64,000 bases of DNA, taken from NCBI RefSeq assembly GCF_014673215.1, contig NZ_JACWMS010000001.1, positions 806,001 through 870,000 on the forward strand. The letters run 5' to 3'. The notes under the pieces are model-generated. The model was not told the DNA's origin and did not search any database. It was given only the letters and a program-made list of their open reading frames with translations. The first letter of the stretch is position 1, and each line of letters opens with the position of its first letter. The position numbers were made by a program, and so were the translations under genes. Source of the DNA: Gordonia hankookensis. Its GTDB lineage: Bacteria > Actinomycetota > Actinomycetes > Mycobacteriales > Mycobacteriaceae. This document shows, one piece after another, positions 44,903-64,000 of the stretch.

Positions 44903-44996
44903 AGTGATGCGTGGCCGGAACTGAGAGACCTATTGTCACCAACCGATTTCCGGCATTTCACTTCCCGGAGGCCGAAGGGCCGTATGGTTTTCGAGT

Positions 44997-47900
44997 GTGA
45001 GCCGATCATCCGGAGTTGACGGCGAAGCGGCGAAGGCTCTGCTGGACGTCGGCAGATTCTTCACCCGGTGGGACGAGAGCGACGACGGCCGTGCGGTGTT
45101 CCGTCGTGGCGGGCGGGCGGGTGATGTCTTCTATCGTGACCGGTGGAGCCACGACAAGATCGTGCGGTCCACCCACGGGGTCAACTGCACCGGCTCGTGT
45201 TCCTGGAAGGTCTACGTCAAAGACGGCATCATCACCTGGGAAACCCAGGAGACCGACTATCCGTCGGTAGGACCCGATCGACCCGAGTACGAACCCCGCG
45301 GATGCCCACGCGGCGCGGCGTTCTCGTGGTACACGTATTCCCCCACCCGCGTGCGCTATCCCTACGCACGCGGCGTGCTGGTGGAGATGTTCCGGGAAGC
45401 GCGAGCCCGGCTGGGGGACCCGGTCCTCGCGTGGGCCGACGTGGTCGGGGATCCGATGCGGCGTCGGTCCTATCAACAGGCGCGCGGCAAGGGTGGCCTG
45501 GTGCGGGTCACGTGGGACGAGGCGATCGAGATCGCGGCCGCCGCCCATGTGCACACCATCAAGACCTACGGACCCGACCGTTGTGCCGGCTTCTCCCCCA
45601 TCCCGGCGATGTCGATGGTCTCCCATTGCGTGGGAACACGATTCATCCAGCTGATCGGCGGCGTGATGACGTCGTTCTACGACTGGTACGCCGACCTCCC
45701 GGTCGCCAGCCCGCAGGTGTTCGGCGACCAGACCGACGTCCCGGAATCGGGCGACTGGTGGGATGCAACGTATCTGATGATGTGGGGCTCGAACGTGCCC
45801 GTCACCCGGACGCCGGACGCGCACTGGATGGCAGAGGTCCGCTATCGGGGCACCAAGATCGTCACGGTCAGCCCGGATTACGCCGACAACACCAAATTCG
45901 CCGACGAGTGGCTACCTGCCCAGGCGGGCACCGATGCCGCGCTCGCCATGGCGATGGGGCACGTGATCCTCACGGAATTCTTTGTGCGCAAACGTACCCC
46001 GTTCTTCGACGAGTACGTGCGCACCTACACCGACCTGCCCTTCCTGATCCACCTCGAGGAACGTGACGGTGACCGGGCACAGGGCTACGTACCGGGCAAG
46101 TTCCTGACCGCCGACGAAGTGGGCGACGCGACGAGCGCTGCCGAGGAGGACGTCTGGAAGACGGTGATCCTCGACGAGGCGACCGGACAGCCGGTGGTGC
46201 CCAACGGTTCCATGGGTTTTCGCTATGCCGACTCCGGTGTCGGACAGTGGAATCTCGACCTCGACGGAGTCGTCCCGGCGCTCACGCTGCACGGTGATTC
46301 CGCCGAGGCCGTGCCGGTGAGTTTCCCGGCGTTCGACGCCCCGGACGGCAGCGGTTCGGTCGTGCACCGTGGCGTGCCGGCGGTCCGTGTCGGTGGTCAC
46401 CTCGTCACCACCGTGTTCGACCTCATGCTCGCGCAGTACGGCGTGGGGCGTGACGGACTGCCCGGCGACTGGCCCAGCGGCTACGACGACGTCGAGACCC
46501 CGTACACACCTGCATGGCAGGCCGAGATCACCAGCGTCCCGGCCGAGGCGGCCATCCGGATCGCACGCGAATTCGCCACCAACGCCGATGAATCCGAAGG
46601 CCGGTCGATGATCATCATGGGCGCGGGCATCTGCCAGTGGTTCCATGGCGACGCCACCTACCGGTCGATCCTGTCGTTGTTGATCCTCACCGGCTGCATG
46701 GGCCGCAACGGCGGGGGGTGGGCGCACTATGTCGGGCAGGAGAAGTGCCGTCCCATCACCGGCTGGATCTCCCTCGCCAACGGGCTCGACTGGACCCGGC
46801 CGCCCCGCACGATGACCGGCACGTCGTACTGGTACATGCACACCGACCAGTGGCGCAACGACGGGTATTCGGCCGCCTCTCTGACCTCCCCGCTGTCCCG
46901 CGGGGTTCTCGACCACCAGCACACCGCCGACACGATCGCACAATCGGCTCGGCTCGGGTGGATGCCCTTCTACCCGCAGTTCTCGAGCAATCCCCTCGAC
47001 ATCGCCGAGTCGGCCCAGTCCGCGGTCGATCGCGGCGATGCGGAGAACATCGGCAGCTATGTGGCGCGCGAGCTGACGTCGGGCGGCCTGACCCCGGCGA
47101 TCTCCGACATCGACGCAGCCGAGAACTGGCCCCGCACCCTGGTGCTGTGGCGCTCGAACCTGATGGGATCGTCTGCGAAGGGCAACGAGTACTTCCTCCG
47201 TCATCTGCTCGGCACCCATCACAATGTGCTCGGCACGGAGAACCCCGATGCTCCGCGTCCGCGCGACGTGGTGTGGCGCGACGAGGCACCGGAGGGCAAG
47301 CTCGACCTGCTGATGTCGGCCGATTTCCGCATGACATCGACCACTTTGCTCTCCGATGTCGTGTTCCCGGCGGCGACCTGGTACGAGAAGCACGACCTCT
47401 CGTCCACGGACATGCATCCGTTCGTGCATGCCTTCTCGCCTGCGATCGACCCGCCGTGGGAGGCGAAGACCGACTTCGACATGTTCCATCTGCTCGCCAC
47501 GAAGTTCTCGGATCTGGCGCGTACCCATCTCGGCGTGCGTCGCGATCTGGTGAGTGTGCCGCTCCAGCACGACACCCCCGGTGAGACCGCCCAACCGCAT
47601 GGGCGGGTGGCCGACTGGTGGGGTTCCGACGGGGCGGTGCCCGCCCGTCCAGGACGCAACATGCCGAACTTCAGTGTGGTGGAGCGTGACTACACGGCCA
47701 TCGCGGACAAACTCGGCACCGTCGGCCCGCTCGCCGATTCGTTGGGATTCACGGTGAAGAACGTGACCTACGAGCTCACCGATCAGACCCGCAAGCTCGC
47801 CGAGTCCAACGGGGTCATGCTCGGCGGCGCAGGCGACGGACGTCCGGCGATCGACACGGACGCCAAACTCGCCGAGGCGATCCTGACGCTGTCCGGGACC

Positions 47901-48719
47901 ACCAACGGCGAACTCGCCGTGCAGGGTTTCCGCACCCTCCAGCGACGGGTCGGTTTCCTGCTCGACGATCTAGCTCGTGGGTCCGAGGAGAAACGCATCC
48001 GGTTCGCCGACACACAGCAGGCCCCGGTGCCGGTGATCACCTCGCCCGAGTGGTCCGGATCGGAGACCGGTGGGCGACGCTACGCGCCGTTCACGGTGAA
48101 CATCGAGCGGCTCAAGCCCTTTCACACCCTCACCGGCCGGATGCACTTCTACCTCGATCACGATTGGATGATCGACATCGGTGAGTCACTGCCGATCTAT
48201 CGGCCGCCACTGGACATGCACCGGCTCTTCGGCGAGCCGAGACTCGGACCCGACGGCGACCGGCAGATCACCGTCCGCTATCTGACCCCGCACTCCAAGT
48301 GGTCGATCCACTCCGAGTACCAGGACAACCTGTTCATGCTCTCGCTCTCGCGCGGCGGGCCGACGGCGTGGCTCAGTCCCGACGACGCCGCGTCCATCGA
48401 CGTACACGACAACGACTGGATCGAATGCACCAACGCGAACGGCGTGGTGGTGTGCCGGGCGATCGTGAGTCACCGTATGCCGAACGGCGTCTGCTACGTC
48501 CATCACGCGCAGGAGCGCACCATCGATGTACCGAAGTCCGAGGCGACCGGACGGCGCGGCGGTATTCACAATTCGGTGACACGTCTGCTCGTCAAGCCGA
48601 CGCACATGATCGGCGGCTACGCGCAATTGTCCTACGCCTTCAACTATCTGGGCCCGGCAGGCAATCAGCGCGACATGGTCTCGACCATTCGCAAACGCAA
48701 CCAGGAGGTGACGTACTGA
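44997..48719 (+). CDS. narG: Respiratory nitrate reductase alpha subunit
   Basis: The 1240-residue Mo-bisMGD subunit reduces nitrate to nitrite on the cytoplasmic face. The [4Fe-4S] FS0 ligands are His60, Cys64, Cys68 and Cys103 (STHGVNCTGSCSW; RGCPRG). The molybdenum-site region is FYDWYADLPVASPQVFGDQTDVPES, followed by WGSNVPVTRTPDAHW. The length is typical. The GTG start lacks a close ribosome site; a GGAGG lies 28 nt upstream. Its stop overlaps narH ATG (TGATG). Confidence 0.97.
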   Translation: MSRSSGVDGEAAKALLDVGRFFTRWDESDDGRAVFRRGGRAGDVFYRDRWSHDKIVRSTHGVNCTGSCSWKVYVKDGIITWETQETDYPSVGPDRPEYEPRGCPRGAAFSWYTYSPTRVRYPYARGVLVEMFREARARLGDPVLAWADVVGDPMRRRSYQQARGKGGLVRVTWDEAIEIAAAAHVHTIKTYGPDRCAGFSPIPAMSMVSHCVGTRFIQLIGGVMTSFYDWYADLPVASPQVFGDQTDVPESGDWWDATYLMMWGSNVPVTRTPDAHWMAEVRYRGTKIVTVSPDYADNTKFADEWLPAQAGTDAALAMAMGHVILTEFFVRKRTPFFDEYVRTYTDLPFLIHLEERDGDRAQGYVPGKFLTADEVGDATSAAEEDVWKTVILDEATGQPVVPNGSMGFRYADSGVGQWNLDLDGVVPALTLHGDSAEAVPVSFPAFDAPDGSGSVVHRGVPAVRVGGHLVTTVFDLMLAQYGVGRDGLPGDWPSGYDDVETPYTPAWQAEITSVPAEAAIRIAREFATNADESEGRSMIIMGAGICQWFHGDATYRSILSLLILTGCMGRNGGGWAHYVGQEKCRPITGWISLANGLDWTRPPRTMTGTSYWYMHTDQWRNDGYSAASLTSPLSRGVLDHQHTADTIAQSARLGWMPFYPQFSSNPLDIAESAQSAVDRGDAENIGSYVARELTSGGLTPAISDIDAAENWPRTLVLWRSNLMGSSAKGNEYFLRHLLGTHHNVLGTENPDAPRPRDVVWRDEAPEGKLDLLMSADFRMTSTTLLSDVVFPAATWYEKHDLSSTDMHPFVHAFSPAIDPPWEAKTDFDMFHLLATKFSDLARTHLGVRRDLVSVPLQHDTPGETAQPHGRVADWWGSDGAVPARPGRNMPNFSVVERDYTAIADKLGTVGPLADSLGFTVKNVTYELTDQTRKLAESNGVMLGGAGDGRPAIDTDAKLAEAILTLSGTTNGELAVQGFRTLQRRVGFLLDDLARGSEEKRIRFADTQQAPVPVITSPEWSGSETGGRRYAPFTVNIERLKPFHTLTGRMHFYLDHDWMIDIGESLPIYRPPLDMHRLFGEPRLGPDGDRQITVRYLTPHSKWSIHSEYQDNLFMLSLSRGGPTAWLSPDDAASIDVHDNDWIECTNANGVVVCRAIVSHRMPNGVCYVHHAQERTIDVPKSEATGRRGGIHNSVTRLLVKPTHMIGGYAQLSYAFNYLGPAGNQRDMVSTIRKRNQEVTY

Positions 48720-50383
48720 TGCGGGTCATGGCCCAGATGGGCATGGTGATGAACCTCGACAAGTGCATCGGGTGCCACACGTGTTCGGTCACCTGCAAGC
48801 AGGCGTGGACGAACCGTGCGGGTACCGAGTACGTCTGGTTCAACAATGTCGAGACACGTCCCGGGCAGGGTTACCCGCGTCGACACGAGGATCAGGAGAA
48901 GTGGCGCGGAGGTTGGCACCTCGACAAGAAGGGGCGCCTGCGGCTCCGCACCGGCGGCCGGCTTCAGAAGCTGTTGACACTCTTCGCCAGCCCCGTGCAG
49001 CCGACCCTCGACGACTACTACGAACCGTGGACCTACGACTACCAGACCCTGGTCGATGCACCCCTCGGCGACGACTTCCCGGTGGCCCGGCCCAAGTCGC
49101 TCATCACCGGCGCGGACACCAAGGTCTCGTGGTCGGCCAATTGGGACGACAACCTCGGCGGTGCGCCGGAGATGGGCGCCCTCGACCCCATCGTCGAGAA
49201 GCTGCGCCGCGAGTCCGAGGATGCGATCACATTCAGCTTCGAACAGACGTTCATGTTCTATCTGCCGCGGATCTGCGAGCACTGCCTCAATCCGTCGTGT
49301 ATGGCGTCCTGCCCGTCCGGTGCGATCTACAAGCGATCCGAGGACGGGATCGTCCTCGTCGACCAGGATCGTTGCCGCGGCTGGCGTCAGTGCATCACCG
49401 GATGTCCTTACAAGAAGATCTATTTCAATCACAAGTCCGGCAAGGCCGAGAAGTGCACCTTCTGCTACCCGCGTATCGAGGTGGGACTGCCAACCGTCTG
49501 TTCCGAGACCTGTGTGGGGCGTCTGCGGTACCTCGGGCTGTTCCTCTACGATGCCGATGCGGTGACCGCCGCAGCGTCGGTGCCCGATGACAAAGACCTC
49601 TACCAGGCACAGTTGGATCTGATGCTCGATCCCGACGACCCCGACGTGATCGCGGCGGCACGAGCGGAAGGAATCCCGGACGACTGGCTCGACGCCGCCC
49701 GACGTTCGCCCGTGTACGCCCTCGCCAAGAAGTACCGCGTCGCACTGCCCCTGCATCCGGAATATCGCACCATGCCGATGGTCTGGTACGTCCCGCCGCT
49801 GTCCCCCATCGTCGACCTGTTGTCCGAACAGGGACATGATGCAGAAGATCACCGTAACCTGTTCGGCGCCATCGACTCCCTGCGTATCCCGCTCGACTAT
49901 CTGGCCGAACTGTTCACCGCAGGCGACACAACGGTGATCGGTGACGTCCTGCGGAAGCTGGCCGCGATGCGTTCGTACATGCGCGATGTCACCCTCGGGC
50001 GCGAACTCGATGCGTCCATACCTGCCCGTGTCGGCATGTCCGAGGAGCAGATCTACCAGCTGTACCGGCTGATGGCCATCGCGAAATACGAAGAGCGCTA
50101 CGTGATCCCGACGGCTCATCTCGAGCAGGCGCACGAGCTCGAGGAGATCGGATGCGCCCTCGACTACGACGAGGGCCCCGGCATGTTCGACTCGTCCGCG
50201 TTCGGGGAGGCTAGCGGACGGCCTGCACCGGTGTCGGTGGAGACCTTCCATGCCCTGCGGCAACGCCAGACCAGTGACACCGCAGCGGGGTCGGACAGCA
50301 TGTCGGGCCGGACCAACCTGCTCAACTGGGATGGCAACGGGGTCCCCGACGGCATGTTCCCGCACAGATCGGAGGGACGATGA
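48719..50383 (+). CDS. narH: Respiratory nitrate reductase beta subunit
   Basis: The 554-residue electron-transfer subunit has four iron-sulfur cluster sets: CIGCHTCSVTC (Cys16, 19, 22, 26), CEHCLNPSCMASCPSG, CRGWRQCITGCPYK, in which Trp replaces a Cys so that one cluster is [3Fe-4S], and CTFCYPRIEVGLPTVCSETC. It links heme b of NarI to NarG. ATG 48719 has AGGAGGTG upstream and overlaps the narG stop by one base. Confidence 0.97.
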   Translation: MRVMAQMGMVMNLDKCIGCHTCSVTCKQAWTNRAGTEYVWFNNVETRPGQGYPRRHEDQEKWRGGWHLDKKGRLRLRTGGRLQKLLTLFASPVQPTLDDYYEPWTYDYQTLVDAPLGDDFPVARPKSLITGADTKVSWSANWDDNLGGAPEMGALDPIVEKLRRESEDAITFSFEQTFMFYLPRICEHCLNPSCMASCPSGAIYKRSEDGIVLVDQDRCRGWRQCITGCPYKKIYFNHKSGKAEKCTFCYPRIEVGLPTVCSETCVGRLRYLGLFLYDADAVTAAASVPDDKDLYQAQLDLMLDPDDPDVIAAARAEGIPDDWLDAARRSPVYALAKKYRVALPLHPEYRTMPMVWYVPPLSPIVDLLSEQGHDAEDHRNLFGAIDSLRIPLDYLAELFTAGDTTVIGDVLRKLAAMRSYMRDVTLGRELDASIPARVGMSEEQIYQLYRLMAIAKYEERYVIPTAHLEQAHELEEIGCALDYDEGPGMFDSSAFGEASGRPAPVSVETFHALRQRQTSDTAAGSDSMSGRTNLLNWDGNGVPDGMFPHRSEGR

Positions 50384-51027
50384 GATTCGCACGTCACCGC
50401 ACGCCCGATCCGGCGATCATCCACCAGTGCGCGTCGATCTGTCTCGGGTACCCCGACGACGAGATGATGGCGATGGTGCCGCTCCTCGACGCCGCGCTCG
50501 GACGGCAACCCGCGGACGTCGCGATCACCGGACTCCGGTCATTTGTCGGGCATCTACGGGAGTCGGAGCCGAAGATCTTGCGGCAGAACTACATCGACCT
50601 CTTCGACCTGTCCCGCAAACACACACTGTACCTGTCGTATTGGACTGCAGGCGACACCCGCAGGCGCGGGGAAGAGCTCGGGGCATTCAAACGGCACTAC
50701 CGCGACAGTGGCTTTCTGGTCGACCTTCGGGGCGAACTCCCCGACCACCTTCCGATCGTCCTGGAGTTCGCGGCCCGCGTCGACCCGCAGGCGGGAGTCC
50801 GCCTGCTGCAGGAGTATCGGCCCGCCCTCGAGCTCCTGCGTCTGTCGCTCCTCGATCGGCAGACACCGTACGCGGACGTCGTCGCCGCCGTGTGCGCAAC
50901 CCTGCCCGGCGAGTCGCCTGCGGACCGTCGCGCCGTGATGGCGATGCAAGGGGCGCCACCGCCCTCCGAGTCGGTCGGGCTCGAACCGTTCGACCCCAGG
51001 CTCCTCCCGATCGCCGGAACGAGGTGA
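50380..51027 (+). CDS. narJ: Nitrate reductase assembly chaperone
   Basis: The 215-residue cytosolic TorD/NarJ-type helical chaperone puts the Mo cofactor into NarG and holds NarGH until membrane docking: HQCASICLGYPDDEMMAMVPLLDAAL, YIDLFDLSRKHTLYLSYWTAGDTRRRGEELGAFKRHYRDSGF, DHLPIVLEFAA. ATG overlaps the narH stop by 4 bases. Confidence 0.95.
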   Translation: MRFARHRTPDPAIIHQCASICLGYPDDEMMAMVPLLDAALGRQPADVAITGLRSFVGHLRESEPKILRQNYIDLFDLSRKHTLYLSYWTAGDTRRRGEELGAFKRHYRDSGFLVDLRGELPDHLPIVLEFAARVDPQAGVRLLQEYRPALELLRLSLLDRQTPYADVVAAVCATLPGESPADRRAVMAMQGAPPPSESVGLEPFDPRLLPIAGTR

Positions 51028-51034
51028 CGAGGTC

Positions 51035-51781
51035 ATGGACGTGGTGGCGTGGGGTGTGCTGCCGTACGTGACGCTGCTGCTGCTCATCGGCGGCACGATC
51101 TGGCGGTACCGCTACGACAAGTTCGGCTGGACGACACGCTCGTCGGAGCTCTACGAGTCGCGCCTGTTGCGTATCGGGTCTCCTCTCTTCCATTTCGGAA
51201 TCCTTGTGGTGATCATCGGGCACGCAATGGGTTTGGTGATACCGGAGTCGTGGACCGACGCGATCGGTGTGTCCGAGGACATGTATCACATCACCGCGGC
51301 GCTCTTCGGGTTGATCGCCGGGATCGCCACCCTCGGGGGTCTGTCCATCCTGATCTACCGACGGCGACGCTCCGGCCCGGTCTTCATGGCCACGACCACC
51401 AACGACAAGGTGATGTACGTGGTTCTGACGGCCGCGCTGGTCCTCGGTCTCTTCATCACGCTGATCGGCACCGTTCCGGGCGCCGAGGGAGTGAACTACC
51501 GCGAAACGGTGGCACCGTGGTTCCGCTCCATCTTCTACCTGCAACCCGACGTCCACGCGATGAGCGAGGCACCCCTGCGCTTCCACATCCACGTCCTCGT
51601 CGGGATGCTCGTGTTCGCGATGGTGCCGTTCACGCGCCTCGTCCACGCCTTCACCGCGCCGGTGCACTACCTCTTCCGGCCCTACATCGTCTATCGGAGC
51701 CGAGACGCTGCGCGAGCTCCCGGTAGTCGTACGTCCCGGCCCGGTTGGGCGCCCGTCGGAACAAAGGATCGCCAGCGATGA
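51035..51781 (+). CDS. narI: Respiratory nitrate reductase gamma subunit
   Basis: The 248-residue five-helix cytochrome b subunit oxidises menaquinol and anchors NarGH. His residues for the two hemes are in SPLFHFGILVVIIGHAMGLVIP, VHAMSEAPLRFHIHVLVGMLVFAMVPFTRLVHAF. It ends with FRPYIVYRSRD, a typical NarI tail. It starts 7 bp after narJ. Confidence 0.96.
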   Translation: MDVVAWGVLPYVTLLLLIGGTIWRYRYDKFGWTTRSSELYESRLLRIGSPLFHFGILVVIIGHAMGLVIPESWTDAIGVSEDMYHITAALFGLIAGIATLGGLSILIYRRRRSGPVFMATTTNDKVMYVVLTAALVLGLFITLIGTVPGAEGVNYRETVAPWFRSIFYLQPDVHAMSEAPLRFHIHVLVGMLVFAMVPFTRLVHAFTAPVHYLFRPYIVYRSRDAARAPGSRTSRPGWAPVGTKDRQR

Positions 51782-52998
51782 CCATCACCACACCGACGCC
51801 TGCTGCACTACGCGCCGGCCAGACGCGCAACCTCGCACTCGCGACGCTGGCCTTCTGCATCAGCTTCTGGGCCTGGAACCTGATCGCGCCGCTCGGCGTC
51901 CGGTATGCCCAGGATCTCGACCTGTCGTCCACGCAGAAATCCGTGCTGGTGGCCATCCCCATCGTCGTCGGCTCACTCGGGCGCATCCTCACCGGGGCCC
52001 TCACCGACCGATTCGGTGGGCGTCTGATGTTCCCCGTCCTCCTCGTGGCGACCGCACCCTTCGTCGTACTCGTCGCAGTGGCAGGCGAACTCGGTTCGTA
52101 CCCGATGATGCTCATCGTCGGGTTCTTCCTCGGCATCGCCGGCACCACCTTCGCCGTCGGCATCCCGTTCGTGAACGCCTGGTACGAGCCGTCGAAACGC
52201 GGTTTCGCCACCGGCATCTTCGGGGCAGGGATGGGCGGGACAGCGCTGTCGGCGTTCTTCACGCCCCGGTTCGTGAGCTGGTTCGGGTACGTCACCACCC
52301 ACGTGATCATCGCGATCGCACTCGTGGTGGTTGCCGCCCTCGTCTGGATGTTCATGCACGACTCCTCCGGATGGCAGCCGAACCGTGCGGCGGTGACACC
52401 CAAGCTCGTCGCCGCCGTGAAACTGCCGATCACCTGGCAGATGTCGTTGCTGTACGCGGCCACCTTCGGTGGTTTCGTCGCCTTCTCCACCTATCTGCCG
52501 ACGTACCTCAAGGACATCTACGACTTCGACCTGCAGGCCGCGGGAACCCGTACCGCCGGATTCGCCGTCGCGGCCGTGATCGCCCGGCCGATCGGCGGTG
52601 TGCTCTCCGATCGTTTCGGCCCCCGCGCGATCACGTTCATCTCCTGTGCCGGCGCCGCGGTGCTGGCGATCTGGATGATCACCGAGCCGCCGCTGGAAAT
52701 CCCCGCCGGCATCAACTTCGTGTTGATGGCGGCCTGTATGGGCCTCGGGTCGGGCTCGGTGTTCGCCTGGGTGGCGCAGGCCGCGCCCCCCGAACGCGTC
52801 GGATCGGTGACCGGCATCGTCGGCGCCGCCGGCGGGATGGGCGGCTTCTTCCCGCCGATGGTGATGGGCGCGACCTACAACGCTGCCGAACACAGTTACA
52901 CCATCGGACTGACGCTACTCGTCGTCTTCGCGACCGGCGCCGCGCTGTTCACGCTGTTCGGGATCAAGCGCAAGCCGGTGCCGCAGTCCACCGTGTGA
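51778..52998 (+). CDS. narK: Nitrate/nitrite MFS transporter
   Basis: The 406-residue NNP-family transporter begins ATLAFCISFWAWNLIAPLGVRYAQDLDLSSTQKSVLVAIPIVVGSLGRILTGALTDRFGGRLMF, and has a nitrate signature-like glycine-rich helix IFGAGMGGTALSAFFTPRF and a second, GIVGAAGGMGGFFPPMVMG. It moves nitrate in or exchanges nitrate for nitrite. ATG 51778 overlaps the narI stop (ATGA), so the five nar genes form one coupled operon that ends at the hairpin downstream. Confidence 0.94.
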   Translation: MTITTPTPAALRAGQTRNLALATLAFCISFWAWNLIAPLGVRYAQDLDLSSTQKSVLVAIPIVVGSLGRILTGALTDRFGGRLMFPVLLVATAPFVVLVAVAGELGSYPMMLIVGFFLGIAGTTFAVGIPFVNAWYEPSKRGFATGIFGAGMGGTALSAFFTPRFVSWFGYVTTHVIIAIALVVVAALVWMFMHDSSGWQPNRAAVTPKLVAAVKLPITWQMSLLYAATFGGFVAFSTYLPTYLKDIYDFDLQAAGTRTAGFAVAAVIARPIGGVLSDRFGPRAITFISCAGAAVLAIWMITEPPLEIPAGINFVLMAACMGLGSGSVFAWVAQAAPPERVGSVTGIVGAAGGMGGFFPPMVMGATYNAAEHSYTIGLTLLVVFATGAALFTLFGIKRKPVPQSTV

Positions 52999-53024
52999 CG
53001 CGCGCGTTCACATTCCCTCGATCT

Positions 53025-53068
53025 CATCTCGTGCGGCCGACATCCATCCAGGTCGGCCGCACGAGATG
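53025..53068 (+). terminator. 17-bp hairpin after narK
   Basis: CATCTCGTGCGGCCGAC pairs perfectly with 53052-53068 around a 10-nt loop, 27 bp after the narK stop. There is no U-tract, as is common in actinobacteria. It should end the nar operon. Confidence 0.7.
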
Positions 53069-53195
53069 ACACCGCGATACCGCGGTGGCGCATCCTCGGG
53101 CCCCTCGACCCGAGCCGCGGTCGGCGCGGACCGATATATTCCTCAACGATGACCGCCGCACCCATGCCGCCGGCCGCCTCGAGGAGCCACTGACG

Positions 53196-53864
53196 TTGGA
53201 ACACCATCCACTGACGCCGTCGCAGAGCGCTGTGTTGTTCGTGCTGATGTCGCAGGCACGAGATGTGTCGAACCCGGAACTCCGGACCCTCGCGCCCGAA
53301 CTGACCCGCCCGAGCCGGCAGAAGCTCATCGACCTGGGCCTCATCGAATCGGCGAAGGGACCACGCAACAGCTACGTGCACAGCCTGACCGATCGCGGGT
53401 GGGCTTGGTGTGCAAGAGAACTCGACGAGACACCGCCCAAGGGCGCGCAGCCGCCGATTCGTGCGCTGTATGCGGTGATGGCGAGCATCGGGCGGTACCT
53501 CGTCGCCGACGACCTGCGCCTGCACGAGGTGTTCCGACCTCCCGCATCGCCTCCCGTACCGGTACCCGTCGCGCCCCCGGCAGCACCCATCGCGCCCGAC
53601 GACGACGTCGACCGCCGGATTCGTGCCGCCTATACGCACTCGGCGCGCGGGCCCGGCGCCTGGGTGGCGATGACCACGCTGCGGGCCGCTCTCCCCGATG
53701 TCGAGGCGGCCGAGCTCGACGACGCCCTCGTCCGCCTGCAGAGGCGACCGGGGGTGAGTCTCATCCCGCAGGAGGATCAGATGCTGCTGACCGACGCCGA
53801 CAGGTCGGCCGCGGTGCGGGTCGGCACCCAGCTGTGTCACCTCTTCGCGATCGAGGACCTCTGA
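53196..53864 (+). CDS. Winged-helix protein coupled to a double ATPase
   Basis: The 222-residue protein has an N-terminal winged-helix domain, PLTPSQSAVLFVLMSQARDVSNPELRTLAPELTRPSRQKLIDLGLIESAKGPRNSYVHSLTDRGWAW, like a MarR-type fold. A Pro-rich linker (PPASPPVPVPVAPPAAP) leads to a second small helical/winged region (DDDVDRRIRAAYTHSARGPGAWVAMTTLRAALPDVEAAELDDALVRLQRRPGVSLIPQEDQ). TTG 53196 is preceded by GAGGAG; the frame is open further up to 53085, so the start is uncertain. The last base of its stop is the A of the ATPase ATG, so the two are obligately coupled. The role is unknown; it may recruit the ATPase to DNA. Confidence 0.7.
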   Translation: MEHHPLTPSQSAVLFVLMSQARDVSNPELRTLAPELTRPSRQKLIDLGLIESAKGPRNSYVHSLTDRGWAWCARELDETPPKGAQPPIRALYAVMASIGRYLVADDLRLHEVFRPPASPPVPVPVAPPAAPIAPDDDVDRRIRAAYTHSARGPGAWVAMTTLRAALPDVEAAELDDALVRLQRRPGVSLIPQEDQMLLTDADRSAAVRVGTQLCHLFAIEDL

Positions 53865-56800
53865 TGGACGAACCCACCCGGCAAGCGCTCGAATCGATCC
53901 GACTCGATTGGGCCGCCACCCCGGACGACGTCTGGGGATCGCAGGCGCCACTGCATGTCCGGGGATTGCACGAGCCAACCGTGGACGAGATCATCCGTGC
54001 CTTCGACGACGCCAGACGCAGCAGCGGCGCGAGTCCGCTCGGTGTGGCCGTGCGGGGACCGGCAGGTGCGGGCAAGACCCACCTGCTCGGCCAGGTCCGC
54101 GAACGTGTCCAGGCGGCGGGCGGATACTTCTTCCTCGTCAAACTCCTGGACGGCGAGGATTTCTGGCGTTCGGTTCTGGTCGCCATGCTCGAGGATCTGA
54201 GTCGGCCCACTCCGACCCACCGATCCCAACTCGCCCAGCTCCTCGATCAACTCGGCCGCGACACCGGGGTCGCGGCGGCCGATCTGGACGCCGTGACCGG
54301 CACCACCGAGGTGACCCCCGAGATCCTCGACCGCTTCATCACGTCGGTGTACACCAAACACTCGCGACACCGCCGCAGATCCCAGCACATCCTGCGCGCG
54401 CTCGTGCTGACCGAGGCGGACGACTTCGCCACCAAGGATCTCGGCGAGGCGTTTCTGCACCTCGACGTCGACGACGGGCAGGAGTTGGCCGTCTGGGGTA
54501 TCCGCAACGCCCGGCTCGGCTACCACGAGATCGTCGAGAACATCTCCCGGATCATCGCCTTCGACAACGCGTCGGTACTGGCCATCGACCAGATCGACAC
54601 GCTCATCGAGGCCGCGAAGTCGGAGAACCGGCACGACGAGAACGCAGTCGAGAAGGTCGCCCACGGCCTCATGTCCATCCGCGAGACGATGAGCCGTACG
54701 GCGGCGGTGGTCTCGTGTATCACGGCCGCCTGGGACTATCTGGAAAACCGGGTCATGGCGTCGGCGACGGACCGGTTCCGTCAGCCACCCAACCTACAAC
54801 GGCCCTCGACCGCCGACTTCGGACGCGCCCTGCTCGCCAAACGTTTTGCACCATGCTTCGCCGAGGTCGGCTTCCGCCCTCCTTACCCCACGTGGCCGGT
54901 CACCGACCGGGCGCTCGTGGCATCGGTGGATTTCACTCCCCGCGAACTGATGCGCACCGCGGACCGTCACATCGGCGCCTGCCTGCGCGCCGACACCTTC
55001 ACCGAGATGACGTCGCTGACCGCCGATCAACAGCCCGAGTACACCTCGCAGTCGGACGAGAATCCCGCGCTCGCGCAGCTCGATCGGCGTTTCGACGAAC
55101 TGCTCGATGCCACCGACCCGGCGCCGGCTGTGGCCCCACAGAGCGAGGATCGCGTCGTCCCGCCATTACTCCAGGCGGGACTGGCCTCGTGGATCGAGGC
55201 ACTCGGAGACGCCGGGACGGCCTTCAAACAGGATCCGAAGCCCAGCCCCAAAGCCGTTCTGCACGGGCGCATCCGACGTATCCTCGATCCGGATACCGAC
55301 GCCGAGCAGTCGTGGGCGTTTCGTGGACTCTCGGCCACCCATCACCGCGCAGTGCAGGCCCGACTCGCCAACGCGACGACAGCGGCCGGACTCTCTCTCG
55401 GGACTGCGGCCCGTGCACTCATCGTCCTCCGACGTGAACCCTGGCCGTCGGGCGCCAGGACCCAGGAGATGGTGGCCGAGTTCGAGCAACGCGGTGGCCG
55501 AGTGATCTCCTGGACCGATGAGGACATCCGCGTCCTCTCCGCGTTGGCCCGGATACGTTCGGAGCGTTCGGAATTCCTCACCGAGTGGATCGCGCGACGC
55601 AACCCCGCGGCCCGCGTCGGCTTCATCAAGGAGATCCTCGAGCCGGCCGTCGACGCAGCGCCGCCCACCCTGGATGTCGTCCCGACCCCCACCGCTGCCG
55701 TACGGCCCGATGGCCCTCGCGGCTGGACCGCACCGGAATCGTCCCGCCCTGTCGACCGCTACGCCGTTCCCGCGCTCAGCGAAATAGCCCAGAACGTGGT
55801 CCTCGGCGCCTTCTCCACCGTAAAGAGCTCGGCCCCAGAGGTTTCGGGGGAAACGGGTGCGGGAGTGACGCAGCAGACCCGCGCGACGTCACCGGACGGC
55901 ACCGCCATCCCGCTCGGGACCGTGGTCGGCGACGGCCGTCCCGTGCACATCGGCCTCGAAGCCCTCCGCAAGCACACCGCAATCTTCGCGGGTTCGGGTT
56001 CGGGGAAGACCGTGCTGATCCGCCGGATCGTCGAAGAGGCTGCCCTGCAGGGCGTCTCGTCGATCGTGCTCGATGTGAACAACGACCTCGCGCGGCTGGG
56101 TACGGCGTGGCCGCAGGGGACCCGCGACTGGCACACCGGCGACGAGCGCAAGGCTGCCGATTACCTCGCAGGCACCGAGGTCGTGGTGTTCACCCCCGGC
56201 CGGAGCAACGGGAGACCGCTGAGCTTTCGTCCGCTGCCGGATTTCGCGGGTGTCCTCGATGACCCGGACGAGTTCACCGCCGCGGTCGAATCCGCCGCGG
56301 CCGGTCTCATCCCCCGAGCCATGGTGGCAGGCAAGACCGCCAAGTCGGTGCAGTCGCGCGCGGTCCTGCACGATGCACTCCGGTACTTCGGCAGACAGGG
56401 CGGCGGTGCGATCGCCGACTTCATCGACGTGCTGGCCGATCTGCCGGACGACGTGAGCGGACTGATGAACGCGCGCAAGTTCGCCGGTGAGATCGCCGAG
56501 AACCTGAAGGCGGCACGCGCGAACGACCCGATGTTCGGCGGGCACGGCGTCCCGGCGGACCCCGGCCTGCTGCTCACGCCGTCGCCGGGCTTCCGGGCCC
56601 GGGTGTCGGTGATCAACCTCGCGGCACTGAGCAGCGACGACAAGCGCAACAACTTCGTCAACGAGCTGCAGATGGCCTTGTTCGCGTGGATCAAGAAGAA
56701 CCCGGCGGCACAGCTACCGCTCGGCGGACTCTTCGTGATGGACGAGGCGCAGAACTATGCGCCGTCGGATCGGACGACCCCGTGCAGCCAGAGCACCCTC

Positions 56801-57130
56801 GCCCTGGTCTCCCAGGCCCGTAAGTACGGTCTTGGTCTGGTCTTCGCCACCCAGGCGCCGAAGGGCCTGGACAACAAGATCCCCGGCAACGCGTCGACGC
56901 AGTTCTTCGGCCTCCTCAACTCCCCCGCCCAGATCTCCGCGGCCCAGGCGATCGCGAAGACCAAGGGCAGTGTCATCCCGGATGTCGGACGACTGTCGAC
57001 GGGCGTGTTCTACACGGCACTCGACGGCGGAGTGTTCGCGAAAACGCAGACTCCCTTGTGCCTCTCGTACCATCCGAAGAGCCCGCCGACGGAGGACGAG
57101 GTCGTCGCGATCGCCCGAGGCGACCGCTGA
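53864..57130 (+). CDS. Double P-loop protein: AAA/KAP-like domain plus HerA/FtsK-like translocase
   Basis: The 1088-residue protein has two ATPase modules. Module 1 (about 55-380) has Walker A GPAGAGKT (65-72) and Walker B SVLAIDQID (237-245). Module 2 (about 680-1085) has Walker A GSGSGKT (710-716), LDVNNDLARLG, Walker B GLFVMDEAQNY (955-965) and GLVFATQAPKGLDNKIPGNASTQ (991-1013), the pattern of HerA/DUF87 DNA-translocating ATPases. The linker (about 430-600) is predicted to be helical. It probably acts on DNA as a hexamer. HerA-type ATPases often partner nucleases in defence, but no nuclease is adjacent. It may be a housekeeping or defence system; I cannot name the family. Confidence 0.75.
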   Translation: MDEPTRQALESIRLDWAATPDDVWGSQAPLHVRGLHEPTVDEIIRAFDDARRSSGASPLGVAVRGPAGAGKTHLLGQVRERVQAAGGYFFLVKLLDGEDFWRSVLVAMLEDLSRPTPTHRSQLAQLLDQLGRDTGVAAADLDAVTGTTEVTPEILDRFITSVYTKHSRHRRRSQHILRALVLTEADDFATKDLGEAFLHLDVDDGQELAVWGIRNARLGYHEIVENISRIIAFDNASVLAIDQIDTLIEAAKSENRHDENAVEKVAHGLMSIRETMSRTAAVVSCITAAWDYLENRVMASATDRFRQPPNLQRPSTADFGRALLAKRFAPCFAEVGFRPPYPTWPVTDRALVASVDFTPRELMRTADRHIGACLRADTFTEMTSLTADQQPEYTSQSDENPALAQLDRRFDELLDATDPAPAVAPQSEDRVVPPLLQAGLASWIEALGDAGTAFKQDPKPSPKAVLHGRIRRILDPDTDAEQSWAFRGLSATHHRAVQARLANATTAAGLSLGTAARALIVLRREPWPSGARTQEMVAEFEQRGGRVISWTDEDIRVLSALARIRSERSEFLTEWIARRNPAARVGFIKEILEPAVDAAPPTLDVVPTPTAAVRPDGPRGWTAPESSRPVDRYAVPALSEIAQNVVLGAFSTVKSSAPEVSGETGAGVTQQTRATSPDGTAIPLGTVVGDGRPVHIGLEALRKHTAIFAGSGSGKTVLIRRIVEEAALQGVSSIVLDVNNDLARLGTAWPQGTRDWHTGDERKAADYLAGTEVVVFTPGRSNGRPLSFRPLPDFAGVLDDPDEFTAAVESAAAGLIPRAMVAGKTAKSVQSRAVLHDALRYFGRQGGGAIADFIDVLADLPDDVSGLMNARKFAGEIAENLKAARANDPMFGGHGVPADPGLLLTPSPGFRARVSVINLAALSSDDKRNNFVNELQMALFAWIKKNPAAQLPLGGLFVMDEAQNYAPSDRTTPCSQSTLALVSQARKYGLGLVFATQAPKGLDNKIPGNASTQFFGLLNSPAQISAAQAIAKTKGSVIPDVGRLSTGVFYTALDGGVFAKTQTPLCLSYHPKSPPTEDEVVAIARGDR

Positions 57131-57200
57131 CCTGCTGCGCGCGGTTTCTGTCGGACCCGTTTGCTCTACTCGAGTGCATCTTCGAACAAAGGAGCGAATC

Positions 57201-57800
57201 ATGTCCGACCATGCCGCCGCCATCCGGGGACTGCGCCGCTGGCATCCGAACCCGTTGGTTCAGGACACGATCAACCGAATCCGAGCACACGGATGGGCGG
57301 TGACCGCGATCAGTGAGCAATGCTCCTGCCCGTCCGACGAGTGCCATCCGCCGGATTGCTCCTTCGCCTACACCTCGGGGATGGGTCTGCACAGCATCCC
57401 GGAGCTCGCCGTCTACGGGCTCGACGCCTGGACCAGCCGGGAGTTGCTCAACGAGCTCGGTGACATCTTCCACACCTACGACTGGCGGGACGCGGTCGAT
57501 CGAGGTGTCGAGATCATGGTGAGCTCCCTCGACGTCCCGGTCCGCGTCATCGAGATGATCGACAAGGACGATCTGGTCGTGACGGGCGAGTTGTTCCCGG
57601 ACGCGCCGGCACTGCAGGCGGTCTGGGCGGATGACTTCGGGAAATACCCGTGGGACGAGGGCTATGCGCTCACCGAACTCGATCAGAAGCTGACAGGCGT
57701 TGCCGGCACGGGCGCAGATCGGGTCCGGGCACAGCGGGTGATCAACCGCGGGGCCGGCCCCAATCGGGCGCAGCGCAGAGCAGCCTTGCGCAGGCGCTGA
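57201..57800 (+). CDS. DUF4262-domain protein
   Basis: The 199-residue protein reads INRIRAHGWAVTAISEQCSCPSDECHPPDCSFAYTSGMGLHSIPELAVYGLDAWTSRELLNELGDIF, the DUF4262 pattern. A cluster of cysteines (CSCPSDECHPPDC) is inserted where many family members have none and could bind metal. ATG 57201 has AAAGGAG upstream. It lies 70 bp after the ATPase gene and may be co-transcribed. Function unknown. Confidence 0.8.
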   Translation: MSDHAAAIRGLRRWHPNPLVQDTINRIRAHGWAVTAISEQCSCPSDECHPPDCSFAYTSGMGLHSIPELAVYGLDAWTSRELLNELGDIFHTYDWRDAVDRGVEIMVSSLDVPVRVIEMIDKDDLVVTGELFPDAPALQAVWADDFGKYPWDEGYALTELDQKLTGVAGTGADRVRAQRVINRGAGPNRAQRRAALRRR

Positions 57801-57805
57801 ACGCA

Positions 57806-57845
57806 CGAACGGCCCCACCTCTCGCCTGAGAGGTGGGGCCGTTCG
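57806..57845. terminator. 18-bp perfect bidirectional terminator hairpin
   Basis: An 18-bp perfect stem (57806-57823 with 57828-57845, starting CGAACGGCCCC) with a 4-nt loop lies between the DUF4262 gene and the convergent rpsN block. It can stop transcription from both sides. Confidence 0.8.
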
Positions 57846-57865
57846 AACTGCGTTGTGCCGCTGGT

Positions 57866-57909
57866 GGTCTCGATACGCCCTTCGCTACCGCTCCGGGCCA
57901 CTCGATCAG
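57866..57909. repeat. Dispersed GGTCTCGATACGCCC...CTCGATCAG element
   Basis: In reverse complement this reads CTGATCGAGTGGCCCGGAGC then GGTAGCGAAGGGCGTATCGAGACC. It matches the third unit of the repeat at 17919-17960 with two one-base insertions and a few changes. It sits just past the end of rpsN, next to the terminator. Confidence 0.7.
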
Positions 57910-57919
57910 CAGCGAAAAG

Positions 57920-58105
57920 TCACCAGCTGGACTTCTGCACGCCCGGGAGCTCACCGGCGTGTGCCATCTCACGCAGGCACACACGGCAGAGGCCGAACTT
58001 GCGGAACACCGAGTGCGGACGGCCGCAACGGTTGCACCGGGTGTAGCCCCGCACGGCGAACTTGGGCTTTTTGTTGGCCTTGTTGACCAGAGCCTTCTTT
58101 GCCAT
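57920..58105 (-). CDS. rpsN: 30S ribosomal protein S14, zinc type (type Z)
   Basis: The 61-residue protein reads [60 protein letters not shown], with the zinc set C-x2-C and C-x2-C. It is the short form used by actinobacteria. It lies 1 bp after rplE and ends the proximal spc block; rpsH, its usual follower, is 15.6 kb away. Confidence 0.97.
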
Positions 58106-59805: not shown

Positions 59806-62800
59806 GTGACCACCGACAACGCCATCCGGACCGACATCGGTCACATCGCCCCCCAGGGCGCGATTCCGATGACCGCCGCACAACGCGGCATCTTCTACGC
59901 CCAGCAACTCGATCCCGAGGTGCCCATGTCGGTGGCGGCGTTCGCGGAGTTCCGCGACGACGTCGACGCCGATGTGATGGAGCGCGCGGTCGCCGCCACG
60001 GCGCACGAGACCGAGTCGGGACGCCTGCGGCTGATCGCCACCGACGACGGCGAGCCGGTGACCCTGGTCGACGACGACCGGACGATCATCCTCGGCCGCC
60101 GGGACTTCTCCGACGCCGACGACCCACGGGCCGCGGCGATGGCCTGGATCGACGATCACCGCTCACATGCCACCGACCTCTACAACGACGAGCTGCTGCA
60201 GACCTACCTGCTGCGCCTCGGCGACAAACACCACATCTGGTACTGCTGGGGCCATCACCTCGCCTTCGACGGCTACGCCGCGATGTACATGATGATGCGC
60301 GTCGCCCAGCATTACACCGCGATCGTCGGCGACGGTGAGGTGCCGCCAGCCCAGATCGCGTCGATGGCACAGATCGCCGGCTTCGACCGCGAGTACCGCT
60401 CGTCCGAGGCCTTCGCCGATGACCGGCGTTACTGGGCCGACCACCTTCTCGACGACGCAGGCGCCCTCCCCGAGATCACCTCGCTCTCGACGGCGACCGC
60501 GGCGGCGGCTCCCACCGCAACGGTGCGGGCGCACACCCTCCCCCAGCCCCTCGTCGAGCGCATCCGCGAGATCGCCCGCGATCACAGCGTCCGGCCAGCC
60601 TCGGTGATCACCGCGGCGGTGGCCGTCTACCTCGCGCGTTTCGCCGATCGCGACGAGGCGATGCTGAGCCTGCCGGTCGCCGCCCGCGACCGCGACATCC
60701 TGCGGACGTCGGCAGGCCTGACGTCCAACGTCGTGCCGGTGCGCGCCCGCATCGACGGATCCGGCGAGCAACAGGTCACCCTCGGCGATTTCCTGCGCAC
60801 GGTGAATGCCGACGTCAAACAGGCTGTGCGCCACCAGAAGTTCCGCCACGAAGACATCACCGGCGACGTACTCGGATCGCCCGGCGGACGTCGCGGCTTC
60901 TTCGGGCCGATGGTCAACGTCATGCTGTTCTTCGAGCACATCGACTTCGGCACGCTTCGCGGCGAGCTCAACGTGCTCTCCACCGGGCCCGTCGAGGACG
61001 CGTCGATCAACGTCTACGACGGTTTCACGGGCGGCATGCGTCTCGACCTCGAGGCCAATCCGAATGTCTATTCGCCCGAGGAGATCGAGCGCCATCACGA
61101 CCGGATCGTGTCCTTCGTCGAGCGGTTCGTGCTGGCCGATCCGGGCCGAGAAGTCACCTCGATCCCGTTGCTCGCCGACGACGAGGGACCCGTCGCCCGC
61201 CGATTCGCGACCGGTGACGCCGTCGACCTCGGCGACACCACCCTGGTGGATCTGCTCGCCGACTCGTTCGGGAGGCACGCCGCGCAGACCGCGATCATCG
61301 ACGTCGACGGCGGGACCCTCGACCACTCGGAGTTCGCCGCCCGCGCCCAATCGGTGGCCGAGGGCCTGCGCGCCCGCGGGATCGGGCCCGAATCGGTGGT
61401 GGGCGTGGGGCTCCCGCGCAGCGTCGATCAGATCGTCGCGTTGCACGGGGTGACCCTCGCCGGTGGGGCATTCCTGCCGATCGATCCTGCCGAACCGGCG
61501 GCACGTCTGCAGCACATCCTCGACACGGCGCGGCCCGCCGTGGTGATCACCCCGGACGGCGCCGCCCTGCCCGACCACGAGGTCGACACCGTCGGACTCG
61601 ACGAGCTCCGGACCGATTCCCGTCCCGGCCGCGGTCGCCACGCGGTGCACACCCCTCGCGCCGCGCAACTGCACGCCGATCATCCCGCATACGTGCTGTT
61701 CACCTCGGGCTCCACCGGAAAGCCCAAGGGCGTCATCATCAGTCACCGGTCAATAGTCAACCGGTTGTCGTGGATGCAATCCCGATACGGCCTCGACAGC
61801 ACCGATCGCGTGCTGCAGAAGACACCGGCCACCTTCGACGTATCCGTCTGGGAGTTCTACTGGCCCATGATCACCGGGGCGACGATGGTGATCCCGAGCC
61901 CGGACGGCCATCGCGACCCGTGGTATCTGCGCGACGTGATCGCACGGCACGCGGTCACCACCACCCACTTCGTCCCGTCGATGCTCTCGGCCTTCGCCGC
62001 CGCACACGGCGGGGACGACGGAGTGGTCGACGATCTGCGGTCACTGCGCCGGATCGTCACGAGCGGCGAGGCACTCACCCCGGAAACCGTCGCGGCGATC
62101 GGACGTCTCACCGACGCCCCGGTCCACAATCTGTACGGCCCCACCGAGGCGGCCGTCGACGTGACCTTCCACGACCACTGCGCTTCCGATGCCGGCGCGG
62201 TACCCATCGGCGCGCCGGTCTGGAACACGACAGTCCAGGTCCTCGACCACCGCCTGGCACCCCAGCCCATCGGCGCGATCGGTGAGCTCTATCTGGGCGG
62301 GATCCAGCTCGCCCGCGGCTACCGCAACCGCCCCGATCTGACGGCCGGGCGGTTCGTGGCCGATCCGTACGGCACCGGCACTCGTCTCTATCGCACGGGC
62401 GATCTGGTCCGCCGCCGCGCCGACGGCGAGCTGGAGTACCTGGGCCGCAGTGACTCTCAGGTGAAGATCCGCGGACAGCGAGTGGAACTCGGCGAGATCG
62501 AGGCCGCGTTGAGCAGCCTGGCCGGCGTCCGCGCCGCTGGCGTGGTCGTCCGAGACGACGTGGTCGCCGACTCGGCGGCGGTCGTCGGCTATGTCAGCGG
62601 CGACGATCTGTCTGACCGCACCCTGCGGACCGAACTCGCCGACCGTCTCCCCGAGCACATGGTCCCGACGACGATCGTCGTGCTCGACGAGCTGCCCACG
62701 ACCGCCAACGGCAAGCTCGACCGGCGCGCGCTGCCCGCACCGCCCCGGCCCGACTCCGCCGAACATGTGACACCGAAGGGGCCGATCGGCGAGCTCGTCG

Positions 62801-64000
62801 CCGACACGGTCGCCGCGGTGCTCGGCGCCGCCGACGTCTCGATGTCGGACAACTTCTTCACGCTCGGCGGCAACTCGCTGTCGGCGACCCGCGTGGCGGC
62901 CCGACTCTCCCGCTCCATCGGACGACGGATCGATCTGCGCACCGTGTTCGACAGTGCGGACCTCACCGGCATCGCCGACGCCATCGCCGCGCTCGGAGTC
63001 GACGCGCAGACCCTGCGCTCCGGTGCCGTCCGCCACGATCCGGCCCCCGAGAGCGTCGACGGGCCCATCCCGCTCTCACCCGCCCAGTACCGACTGTGGC
63101 TGGCCGCCCGCCTCGACCCGGAAGCCGCTGCCACCTACAACATCCCGTTCACGGTGCGACTGGTCGGCGAGCTGGACGTCGATGCACTGCAGGCGGCATT
63201 GAACGATGTCGTCGGACGCCACGAGCCGCTGCGGACGACCGTGTCCGAGCGCGAGGGCATCGCCTGCGCCGAGGTCGCCGACGCATCGGAAGCCCATGTC
63301 ACACTGGATGTCTTCGACGCGACCGCAGGCGACCGGGCCGAGATCACGAGTGCACGCGAGTATGCCGCGGCGCCGTTCGAACTCGTGCGGTCCCTGCCCA
63401 TCCGGGCCCGCCTCGTCCGGACCGGCGACGACGACCACCGGCTGACCGTCGTCATCCACCACATCGCCGCGGACGGATGGTCCCTCGCGCCGCTCGCTGC
63501 CGACCTGGCCGCCGCCTACCGCGCACGTCGCGACGGGTCCGAGCCCGACTGGCCAGCCCTGCCGCTGACCTACTCACAGGTGAGCGCGGCACGCCACGCA
63601 TGGCTGACGGATTCGGGTCCCGACTCGCCCGTCGAGGCGGATCTCGAGTACTGGACCGAGCGCCTCTCCCACTCCCCGCGGGAGACCGAGCTCCCGTTCG
63701 ATCGTCCCCGGCCGCGCACTCCCGATTCTGCGGGTGCCACCCTGCACGCCGGGATCTCGGCACCCCGCCATCGCGGATTGCGAACGCTGGCCGCCGACAA
63801 CGACGCCACCACCTTCATGGTGCTGCACGCCGCGGTCGCCGCACTGTTGCGCACGCTGTCCACCTCGTCCGACATCGCGGTCGGCACCCCGGTCTCCGGT
63901 CGTGGCGACGCCGAGATCGACGGTCTGGTCGGCATGTTCGTCAACACGGTGGTCCTGCGCACCGAGGTGAACAAGGGAGCGGGCTTCACCGACCTCCTCG
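59806..64000 (+). CDS. Non-ribosomal peptide synthetase, EntF-like first module (partial, runs off the window)
   Basis: The first 1398 residues are visible and show no stop. The order is condensation domain (HHLAFDG, 150-156), adenylation domain (A3 LFTSGSTGKPKG near 631-642, A4 FDVSVWEF 677-684, A5 NLYGPTEAAVDV, A7-A8 YRTGDLV...KIRGQRVELGEIE, A10 NGKLDRRAL), carrier domain (LGGNSL, Ser1024), then a second condensation domain (HHIAADGW, 1218-1225). The specificity code read by hand is D-V-W-H-V-S-L-V-D-K, like EntF and other serine modules. It starts with a condensation domain, so the first acyl unit comes from elsewhere. GTG with GAGGGAGG. A siderophore is likely but not shown. Confidence 0.9.
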   Translation, partial: MTTDNAIRTDIGHIAPQGAIPMTAAQRGIFYAQQLDPEVPMSVAAFAEFRDDVDADVMERAVAATAHETESGRLRLIATDDGEPVTLVDDDRTIILGRRDFSDADDPRAAAMAWIDDHRSHATDLYNDELLQTYLLRLGDKHHIWYCWGHHLAFDGYAAMYMMMRVAQHYTAIVGDGEVPPAQIASMAQIAGFDREYRSSEAFADDRRYWADHLLDDAGALPEITSLSTATAAAAPTATVRAHTLPQPLVERIREIARDHSVRPASVITAAVAVYLARFADRDEAMLSLPVAARDRDILRTSAGLTSNVVPVRARIDGSGEQQVTLGDFLRTVNADVKQAVRHQKFRHEDITGDVLGSPGGRRGFFGPMVNVMLFFEHIDFGTLRGELNVLSTGPVEDASINVYDGFTGGMRLDLEANPNVYSPEEIERHHDRIVSFVERFVLADPGREVTSIPLLADDEGPVARRFATGDAVDLGDTTLVDLLADSFGRHAAQTAIIDVDGGTLDHSEFAARAQSVAEGLRARGIGPESVVGVGLPRSVDQIVALHGVTLAGGAFLPIDPAEPAARLQHILDTARPAVVITPDGAALPDHEVDTVGLDELRTDSRPGRGRHAVHTPRAAQLHADHPAYVLFTSGSTGKPKGVIISHRSIVNRLSWMQSRYGLDSTDRVLQKTPATFDVSVWEFYWPMITGATMVIPSPDGHRDPWYLRDVIARHAVTTTHFVPSMLSAFAAAHGGDDGVVDDLRSLRRIVTSGEALTPETVAAIGRLTDAPVHNLYGPTEAAVDVTFHDHCASDAGAVPIGAPVWNTTVQVLDHRLAPQPIGAIGELYLGGIQLARGYRNRPDLTAGRFVADPYGTGTRLYRTGDLVRRRADGELEYLGRSDSQVKIRGQRVELGEIEAALSSLAGVRAAGVVVRDDVVADSAAVVGYVSGDDLSDRTLRTELADRLPEHMVPTTIVVLDELPTTANGKLDRRALPAPPRPDSAEHVTPKGPIGELVADTVAAVLGAADVSMSDNFFTLGGNSLSATRVAARLSRSIGRRIDLRTVFDSADLTGIADAIAALGVDAQTLRSGAVRHDPAPESVDGPIPLSPAQYRLWLAARLDPEAAATYNIPFTVRLVGELDVDALQAALNDVVGRHEPLRTTVSEREGIACAEVADASEAHVTLDVFDATAGDRAEITSAREYAAAPFELVRSLPIRARLVRTGDDDHRLTVVIHHIAADGWSLAPLAADLAAAYRARRDGSEPDWPALPLTYSQVSAARHAWLTDSGPDSPVEADLEYWTERLSHSPRETELPFDRPRPRTPDSAGATLHAGISAPRHRGLRTLAADNDATTFMVLHAAVAALLRTLSTSSDIAVGTPVSGRGDAEIDGLVGMFVNTVVLRTEVNKGAGFTDLL

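Follow-up and report, generated by a model that had tools for sequence, protein, structure and literature searches.

In Gordonia hankookensis, a stretch of 64,000 nucleotides (contig NZ_JACWMS010000001.1, positions 806,001 to 870,000; here termed the window, whose own numbering is used for coordinates) contains two coupled genes encoding a winged-helix protein (P1) and a protein joining an AAA-type to a HerA-type ATPase (P2). We consider it probable that P1 and P2 form the recognition and motor core of an anti-invader system of the HerA-FtsK capture type, whose nuclease was lost in this lineage. Defence, one of the roles put forward in an original prediction made from the sequence of the window, is supported as the likeliest assignment but not proven. 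The pair is defined by the following features:

53196..53864, + strand: P1, 222 amino acids, with a MarR-type winged helix at residues 1-78
53862..53866, + strand: TGATG junction, in which the start of P2 overlaps the stop of P1
53864..57130, + strand: P2, 1088 amino acids, in the order AAA, middle domain, disordered linker, HerA ATPase

The overlap of stop and start codons confirms the predicted coupling of the two genes, and the MarR-type fold agrees with the description of P1 as a winged-helix protein that would bind DNA.

A predicted nuclease precedes the pair in related loci

For a comparison with relatives, genes were called in 59 loci (L031-L089) and subsequently clustered. Some genomes contribute more than one locus and the counts thus refer to loci. 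In 47 of the 59, a gene termed c2 is located directly upstream of P1. Because of this arrangement, the ancestral unit was probably a three-gene operon encoding a nuclease, a winged-helix protein and an AAA-HerA ATPase. The claim that no nuclease is adjacent to the pair consequently holds for the window but not for most of its relatives and, since the latter carry a DUF559 nuclease directly upstream, its absence from the window most plausibly reflects a secondary loss. Among the 12 loci without c2, four are truncated at the end of a contig (L060, L064, L068, L089) and one is a degenerate copy (L081), while the others comprise three close Gordonia relatives of the window (L031, L072, L073) and four loci from Actinoplanes (L049, L057, L058, L071).

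The assignment of c2 as DUF559 nuclease of the PD-(D/E)XK type is predicted from an alignment and scan of 26 of its 47 members. Each of these has matches to both DUF559 and MTES_1575 at E <=0.1, with the first member scoring above the cut-off for DUF559 and below it for MTES_1575, and residues E246, D281, E292, D294 and H298 are invariant. In a profile search, 64 of 76 matches were found at E <=2e-59 and the next one at 1e-10, which sets c2 sharply apart from the remaining DUF559 proteins. Residues 1-230 (e.g. L075:12348-13457) matched no Pfam family consistently among the 26 members.

The three genes are found in the same order, with overlaps of 4 nucleotides, in an annotated Tsukamurella record, which is labelled 'plasmid' but bears ribosomal operons and looks chromosomal. 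The triad is also present in Methylobacterium, where it resides on a plasmid of 1.57 Mb, in Nonomuraea and in Xanthobacter. In the Xanthobacter locus, a CHAT-domain protein and a small gene stand just before the triad (L070:4045-7970).

Probable loss of the nuclease, with the core remaining under selection

The P2 family was detected in 19 of 59 Gordonia genomes and in 84 of 301 genomes of the family. In the Gordonia count, 40 of the 59 genomes match at E 0.001, of which 21 with weak and partial matches to the HerA region (best E 1e-7 to 1e-3) were excluded. Both c2 and P2 are found in 14 of these genomes, P2 alone in five, neither in 40 and c2 alone in none, and this confinement of c2 to P2-positive genomes is significant in a Fisher test that ignores shared ancestry (p 9e-10). 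The five genomes with P2 alone are that of the window, G049, G041, G054 (G. tangerina) and G012, whose copy is degenerate, with P1 reduced to 96 and P2 to 661 amino acids. In a tree of P2 sequences, G. tangerina joins the c2-bearing G024 (support 100/99), apart from the trio containing the window (100/100). This placement implies at least two losses of the nuclease or, as a less simple alternative, its regain, and the loss in the lineage of the window would thus be independent of the one in G. tangerina.

In the genome of the window a full-length c2 is missing and the DUF559 nuclease domain is matched over no more than about 65-82 positions, and tblastn with c2 proteins against the window gave no match at E 0.01. 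Possible traces of the gene precede P1:

53135..53140, + strand: TATATT box, a probable -10 element inherited from the lost c2, with a presumed role as promoter
53149..53193, + strand: open reading frame of 14 codons between the TATATT box and P1, a probable deletion scar of c2, read directly

The TATATT box is found just before the start of c2 in L076, L077, L079 and L082 and farther upstream of it in L075 and L088; it is kept in the window, L072, L073 and L031, and was not seen in L078, L032, L033, L065 and L074. The small reading frame ends 2 nucleotides before the start of P1, and its ATG follows the box at the spacing found before c2 in several relatives. From the box, this spacing and its position, we infer that it is the scar of c2.

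Despite the loss of the nuclease, P1 and P2 are under purifying selection. In the three relatives without nuclease, both frames have remained intact and share 81-95% identity. Ratios of non-synonymous to synonymous substitution rates (dN/dS), obtained by simple pairwise Nei-Gojobori comparison, amount to 0.11-0.13 for P2 and 0.16-0.18 for P1 among the nuclease-less window, G049 and G041, compared to 0.10-0.13 for P2 and 0.12-0.21 for P1 in three c2-bearing pairs.

Exchange of partners in Actinoplanes

In Actinoplanes, the core is found with other neighbours. The gene located 18 bp downstream of P2 in L057 encodes an AIPR (Pfam, 8e-43) or AbiU protein (PADLOC, 1.5e-109). AbiU likewise follows P2 in L058 (1e-113) and a homologue (cluster c88) is found in L071, and the genomes of L057 and L058 additionally hold a complete triad at another place. 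In a search of 67 Actinoplanes genomes, P2 was matched at E 1e-80 in 55, and we have read 30 loci, the best one from each of 30 genomes, together with 20 wider regions (13 of them around these 30 loci), which were chosen mainly for loci without c2 or an intact AIPR gene. Loci labelled by c2 or AIPR were read with flanks of 1.5 kb, a range in which a further trypsin or PDC-M55 gene could be missed. Of the 15 loci closest to L057, nine have AbiU/AIPR after P2, two retain a remnant of it (with matches over 98 and 25 residues) and four lack it. The other 15 contain c2 before P1 in eight cases, a trypsin-STAND-WD40 gene, which is divergent and placed at or near the P1 side, in six, and PDC-M55A/B in one. 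In L143, PDC-M55A/B is located 24 bp upstream of the core. Seven further regions contribute c2 in three cases, the trypsin gene in two and PDC-M55 in one, with L152 being without partner call. Pfam matches define Trypco1 and trypsin-STAND in L141 and WD40 repeats in L049, whereas the remaining members of this group were assigned by BLAST clustering. The PDC-M55A-type neighbour shows a weak match to mad3 (9e-8).

In the P2 tree, from which L118 was left out, partners track clades: the trypsin loci form a single clade (100/100) and the PDC-M55 locus stands beside the AIPR clade. On this tree c2 requires three changes and AIPR five, the latter because it was lost repeatedly. P2 dN/dS values are 0.22-0.23 in two effector-less pairs, 0.09-0.23 in four effector-bearing pairs and 0.12-0.24 between effector-less or remnant loci and loci with an effector. 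Selection is thus not visibly relaxed, although the effector-less pairs are found at the upper end. The core repeatedly outlives its effectors, with partner losses recurring while P1 and P2 stay. In three of the four AIPR-less loci (L134, L135, L137), a gene of 384-538 amino acids is located upstream of P1, which could be an effector or plain synteny and for which the one member scanned had no Pfam match.

Domain organization of P1 and P2

Besides its N-terminal winged helix, P1 contains a C-terminal domain (residues ~134-222), whose order of DSSP secondary-structure elements suggests a second winged helix in the predicted model. Few of 32 P1 members match Pfam, with weak matches of the winged helix-turn-helix (wHTH) type only; Foldseek found no match at E 0.001 and no PADLOC model was matched. 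P2 is divided into four parts:

53972..54991, + strand: AAA-type ATPase, P2 residues 37-376, Walker A at 65-72
55064..55663, + strand: middle alpha/beta domain, P2 residues 401-600, from the DSSP order
55667..55897, + strand: low-confidence linker, P2 residues 602-678, with a predicted local distance difference test score below 50 throughout
55901..57127, + strand: HerA-type DNA translocase, P2 residues 680-1088, Walker A at 710-716

The AAA part carries an invariant D242-Q243-x-D245 at the position of Walker B, an equally invariant P359-R360 and a long helical insert (~100-234) after the second strand. It scores above the cut-off for AAA_16 and AAA_22 in Pfam and weakly in a PDB profile search (best E 0.07), and would belong to the ORC/Cdc6-STAND group. 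KAP, to which the first P-loop had initially been likened, is absent from the Pfam results of P2 and was rejected as identity of this part. The middle domain shows a helix-strands-helix-strand order at residues 428-567, and its model suggests the topology of a restriction endonuclease (REase) without recognisable D..ExK site. Its best match in a PDB profile search is a restriction endonuclease at a non-significant E of 0.11, and hhalign found no match to c2 (0.4%). The prediction that the second module is of HerA type was borne out by the fold of the predicted model and by invariant motifs including D960, E961 and Q997. In fold searches of this model, archaeal HerA and DndH were nearest, and the neighbours are of the HerA/VirB4/TrwB type. 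The lists are dominated by the HerA domain and hence informative for this part only.

Relationship to known systems

HerA-FtsK capture systems were predicted by Rakesh, Aravind and Krishnan (NAR 2024, PMC10853773) and, as far as described in the main text of this study, consist of an Orc/Cdc6 ATPase, an inactive and an active REase, HerA/FtsK and wHTH proteins, with fusions of these domains in various arrangements. They are thought to catch invader DNA and hand it over to a nuclease, an idea extended in PMC12839542. The operon family described here likewise combines an AAA-type ATPase, a HerA/FtsK pump, a wHTH protein and a REase effector, and the middle domain of P2 would occupy the place of the inactive REase, an assignment that is as unproven as that of the AAA part. 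Unlike in the capture systems described there, AAA and HerA are located on one polypeptide and the effector is DUF559, or AbiU/AIPR in Actinoplanes, whereas the copy of the window lacks one. The family thus appears to fit the capture plan closely, with the window containing a derived, effector-less form. The original prediction of an undescribed system goes too far, since the domain set matches these capture systems. As regards the partners, the main texts of PMC10853773 and PMC12839542, whose supplements may list such proteins, mention neither DUF559 nor AIPR or AbiU, and a DUF559-wHTH-AAA-HerA operon was not found described in the literature searched, which did not extend to supplements. Compared to these main texts, the DUF559 and AbiU/AIPR partners and the persisting effector-less cores would be new.

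With HerA-NurA, SIR2-HerA (Nezha) and DUF4297-HerA, the family shares a HerA motor with an effector partner, while differing from all three by the extra AAA module of P2 and the DUF559 partner in relatives. SIR2 and DUF4297 were matched neither by P1, nor by the DUF4262 neighbour of the pair, nor by c2. Unlike in HerA-NurA, the predicted model contains no HAS beta-barrel before P2 residue 680, where the disordered segment 602-678 is found instead. With respect to DndFGH, no Dnd or Dpt model was matched by P1 or P2 in PADLOC and NCBIfam at E up to 1, with the presence of these models in the libraries being unconfirmed, and the REase and methylase modules of DndH are not among the Pfam matches of P2.

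Proposed mechanism and alternative explanations

In the proposed mechanism, the winged helix of P1 would bind DNA and bring P2 to foreign DNA, presumably by recognising it. The AAA half of P2 might act as ATP-dependent switch or loader and the HerA half would form a ring that pumps double-stranded DNA. In most relatives, this DNA would be pumped into the nuclease c2, encoded by the first gene of the operon. In the lineage of the window c2 would have been deleted, with P1, P2, their coupling and the box upstream being retained under selection. The nuclease-less core would then have to cooperate in trans with a different nuclease, and DUF559-domain matches occur elsewhere in the genome of the window; alternatively, it would hold, strip or block invader DNA without cutting it. 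A tentative extension, which we regard as possible rather than probable, views the pair as a core with interchangeable effectors (DUF559, AbiU/AIPR, trypsin-STAND-WD40, PDC-M55) that is protective even alone by capturing, stripping or pumping invader DNA. If true, such effector-independent protection would explain why the core has repeatedly outlived its effectors. The capture systems are gene-neighbourhood predictions, as presented in the main text of PMC10853773, and the P1-P2 family offers natural experiments on one core: its partner in related species is DUF559, AbiU/AIPR, a trypsin-STAND neighbour or nothing recognised, which makes the requirement of the motor for a nuclease directly testable.

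Several observations weigh against a capture-type defence core. The P2 tree follows genera and the pair occupies one chromosomal site in Gordonia and another in many Rhodococcus, so that P2 resembles a gene long settled in the chromosome rather than a rapidly moving defence gene. No PADLOC model was matched by narK, DUF4262 and three genes near rpsH, the five neighbouring genes scanned in the window. P2 itself has as best PADLOC match mad8 of MADS, at 60.5 bits and confined to the HerA part (residues 682-1018), followed by generic HerA at 48 bits and weaker ones, and none of the other mad models was matched by either protein of the pair. Within P2, glutamine replaces the usual glutamate of Walker B in the AAA half, rendering its ATPase activity uncertain, and the middle domain of the window's copy has no significant Pfam or PDB profile match that would support a fold family. 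In Actinoplanes, the partner counts stand without a control-gene baseline for adjacency to defence genes, and further neighbours are common to some trypsin loci, which may mean that shared synteny explains part of the trypsin link and some of the other partner links.

The same observations bear on other explanations. The pair could be the remnant of a decaying defence system that has no present function after loss of its nuclease, as the missing full-length c2 and the degenerate copy in G012 might indicate, but the intact frames in three nuclease-less relatives, dN/dS values of 0.11-0.18, as low as in nuclease-bearing pairs, and the conservation of catalytic motifs, start region and P1/P2 coupling render this unlikely. 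We find it similarly improbable that the proteins act in DNA repair or chromosome processing, as a counterpart in bacteria of the end resection by HerA-NurA, in which c2 would be the nuclease. The proximity of the HerA fold to archaeal HerA and DndH and the chromosomal, largely vertical inheritance would suit such a role, whereas the absence of P2 from 40 of 59 Gordonia genomes does not, and a repair machine would hardly tolerate that related clades have lost the nuclease or contain AbiU/AIPR instead. A coupling or partition module for the maintenance of a plasmid or other element, stranded on the chromosome, appears very unlikely. It would be in line with the HerA/VirB4/TrwB-type fold neighbours and the plasmid-borne Methylobacterium copy, but no relaxase or partition gene was noticed near the pair either in the window or in Tsukamurella, where none was searched for by profile, none of 50,697 phage records contained P2 and its chromosomal site in Gordonia is fixed. 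P2 was also not found in viral contigs, by a scan reaching close relatives only.

Genomic location

The search across relatives, which had been suggested for distinguishing the pair from a housekeeping locus, identifies it as accessory, with its presence in 19 of 59 Gordonia genomes. Its odd position by a ribosomal operon is real, and reflects a genus-wide accessory hotspot in the rpsN-rpsH gap of Gordonia, which is worth mining. Wherever rpsH and rplE share a contig, as they do in 48 Gordonia genomes, the spc operon is interrupted at rpsN|rpsH, whether P2 is present or not, and a link of the pair to the ribosome or translation was thus rejected. The gap between rpsH and rplE measures 3.2-118 kb in 47 of these genomes and 2.5 Mb in one; in the window, the split extends from rpsH to rpsN at 42339-57920. 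Whether the pair always stands beside rpsN had been left as a question: P2 lies inside the gap in all 17 measurable P2-positive Gordonia genomes, whereas the triad occupies the rplN|rpsQ gap in many Rhodococcus loci and in Tsukamurella, and triad or core are found elsewhere in L040, L045, Herbidospora and Actinoplanes.

The DUF4262 gene following P2 (57201-57800) was rejected as fourth component, with matches at E 1e-10 in 45 of 59 Gordonia genomes, many of them P2-negative; it is often found in the same Gordonia gap without P2. A gene for a TerD and AIM24 protein (e.g. L037:13136-14461; 26 cluster members) recurs beside the P1-P2 operon in ribosomal gaps of Rhodococcus and Gordonia. Tandem copies occur in L084 and L061: G007 has two P2 genes, and in Rhodococcus sp. 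IEGM 1381 the whole P1-P2 pair is present twice. Directly beside rplN, positions 59806-63999 of the window contain the start of a very large open reading frame of at least 1398 amino acids, which by eye resembles a non-ribosomal peptide synthetase and whose homologues occupy the corresponding position in several Gordonia loci.

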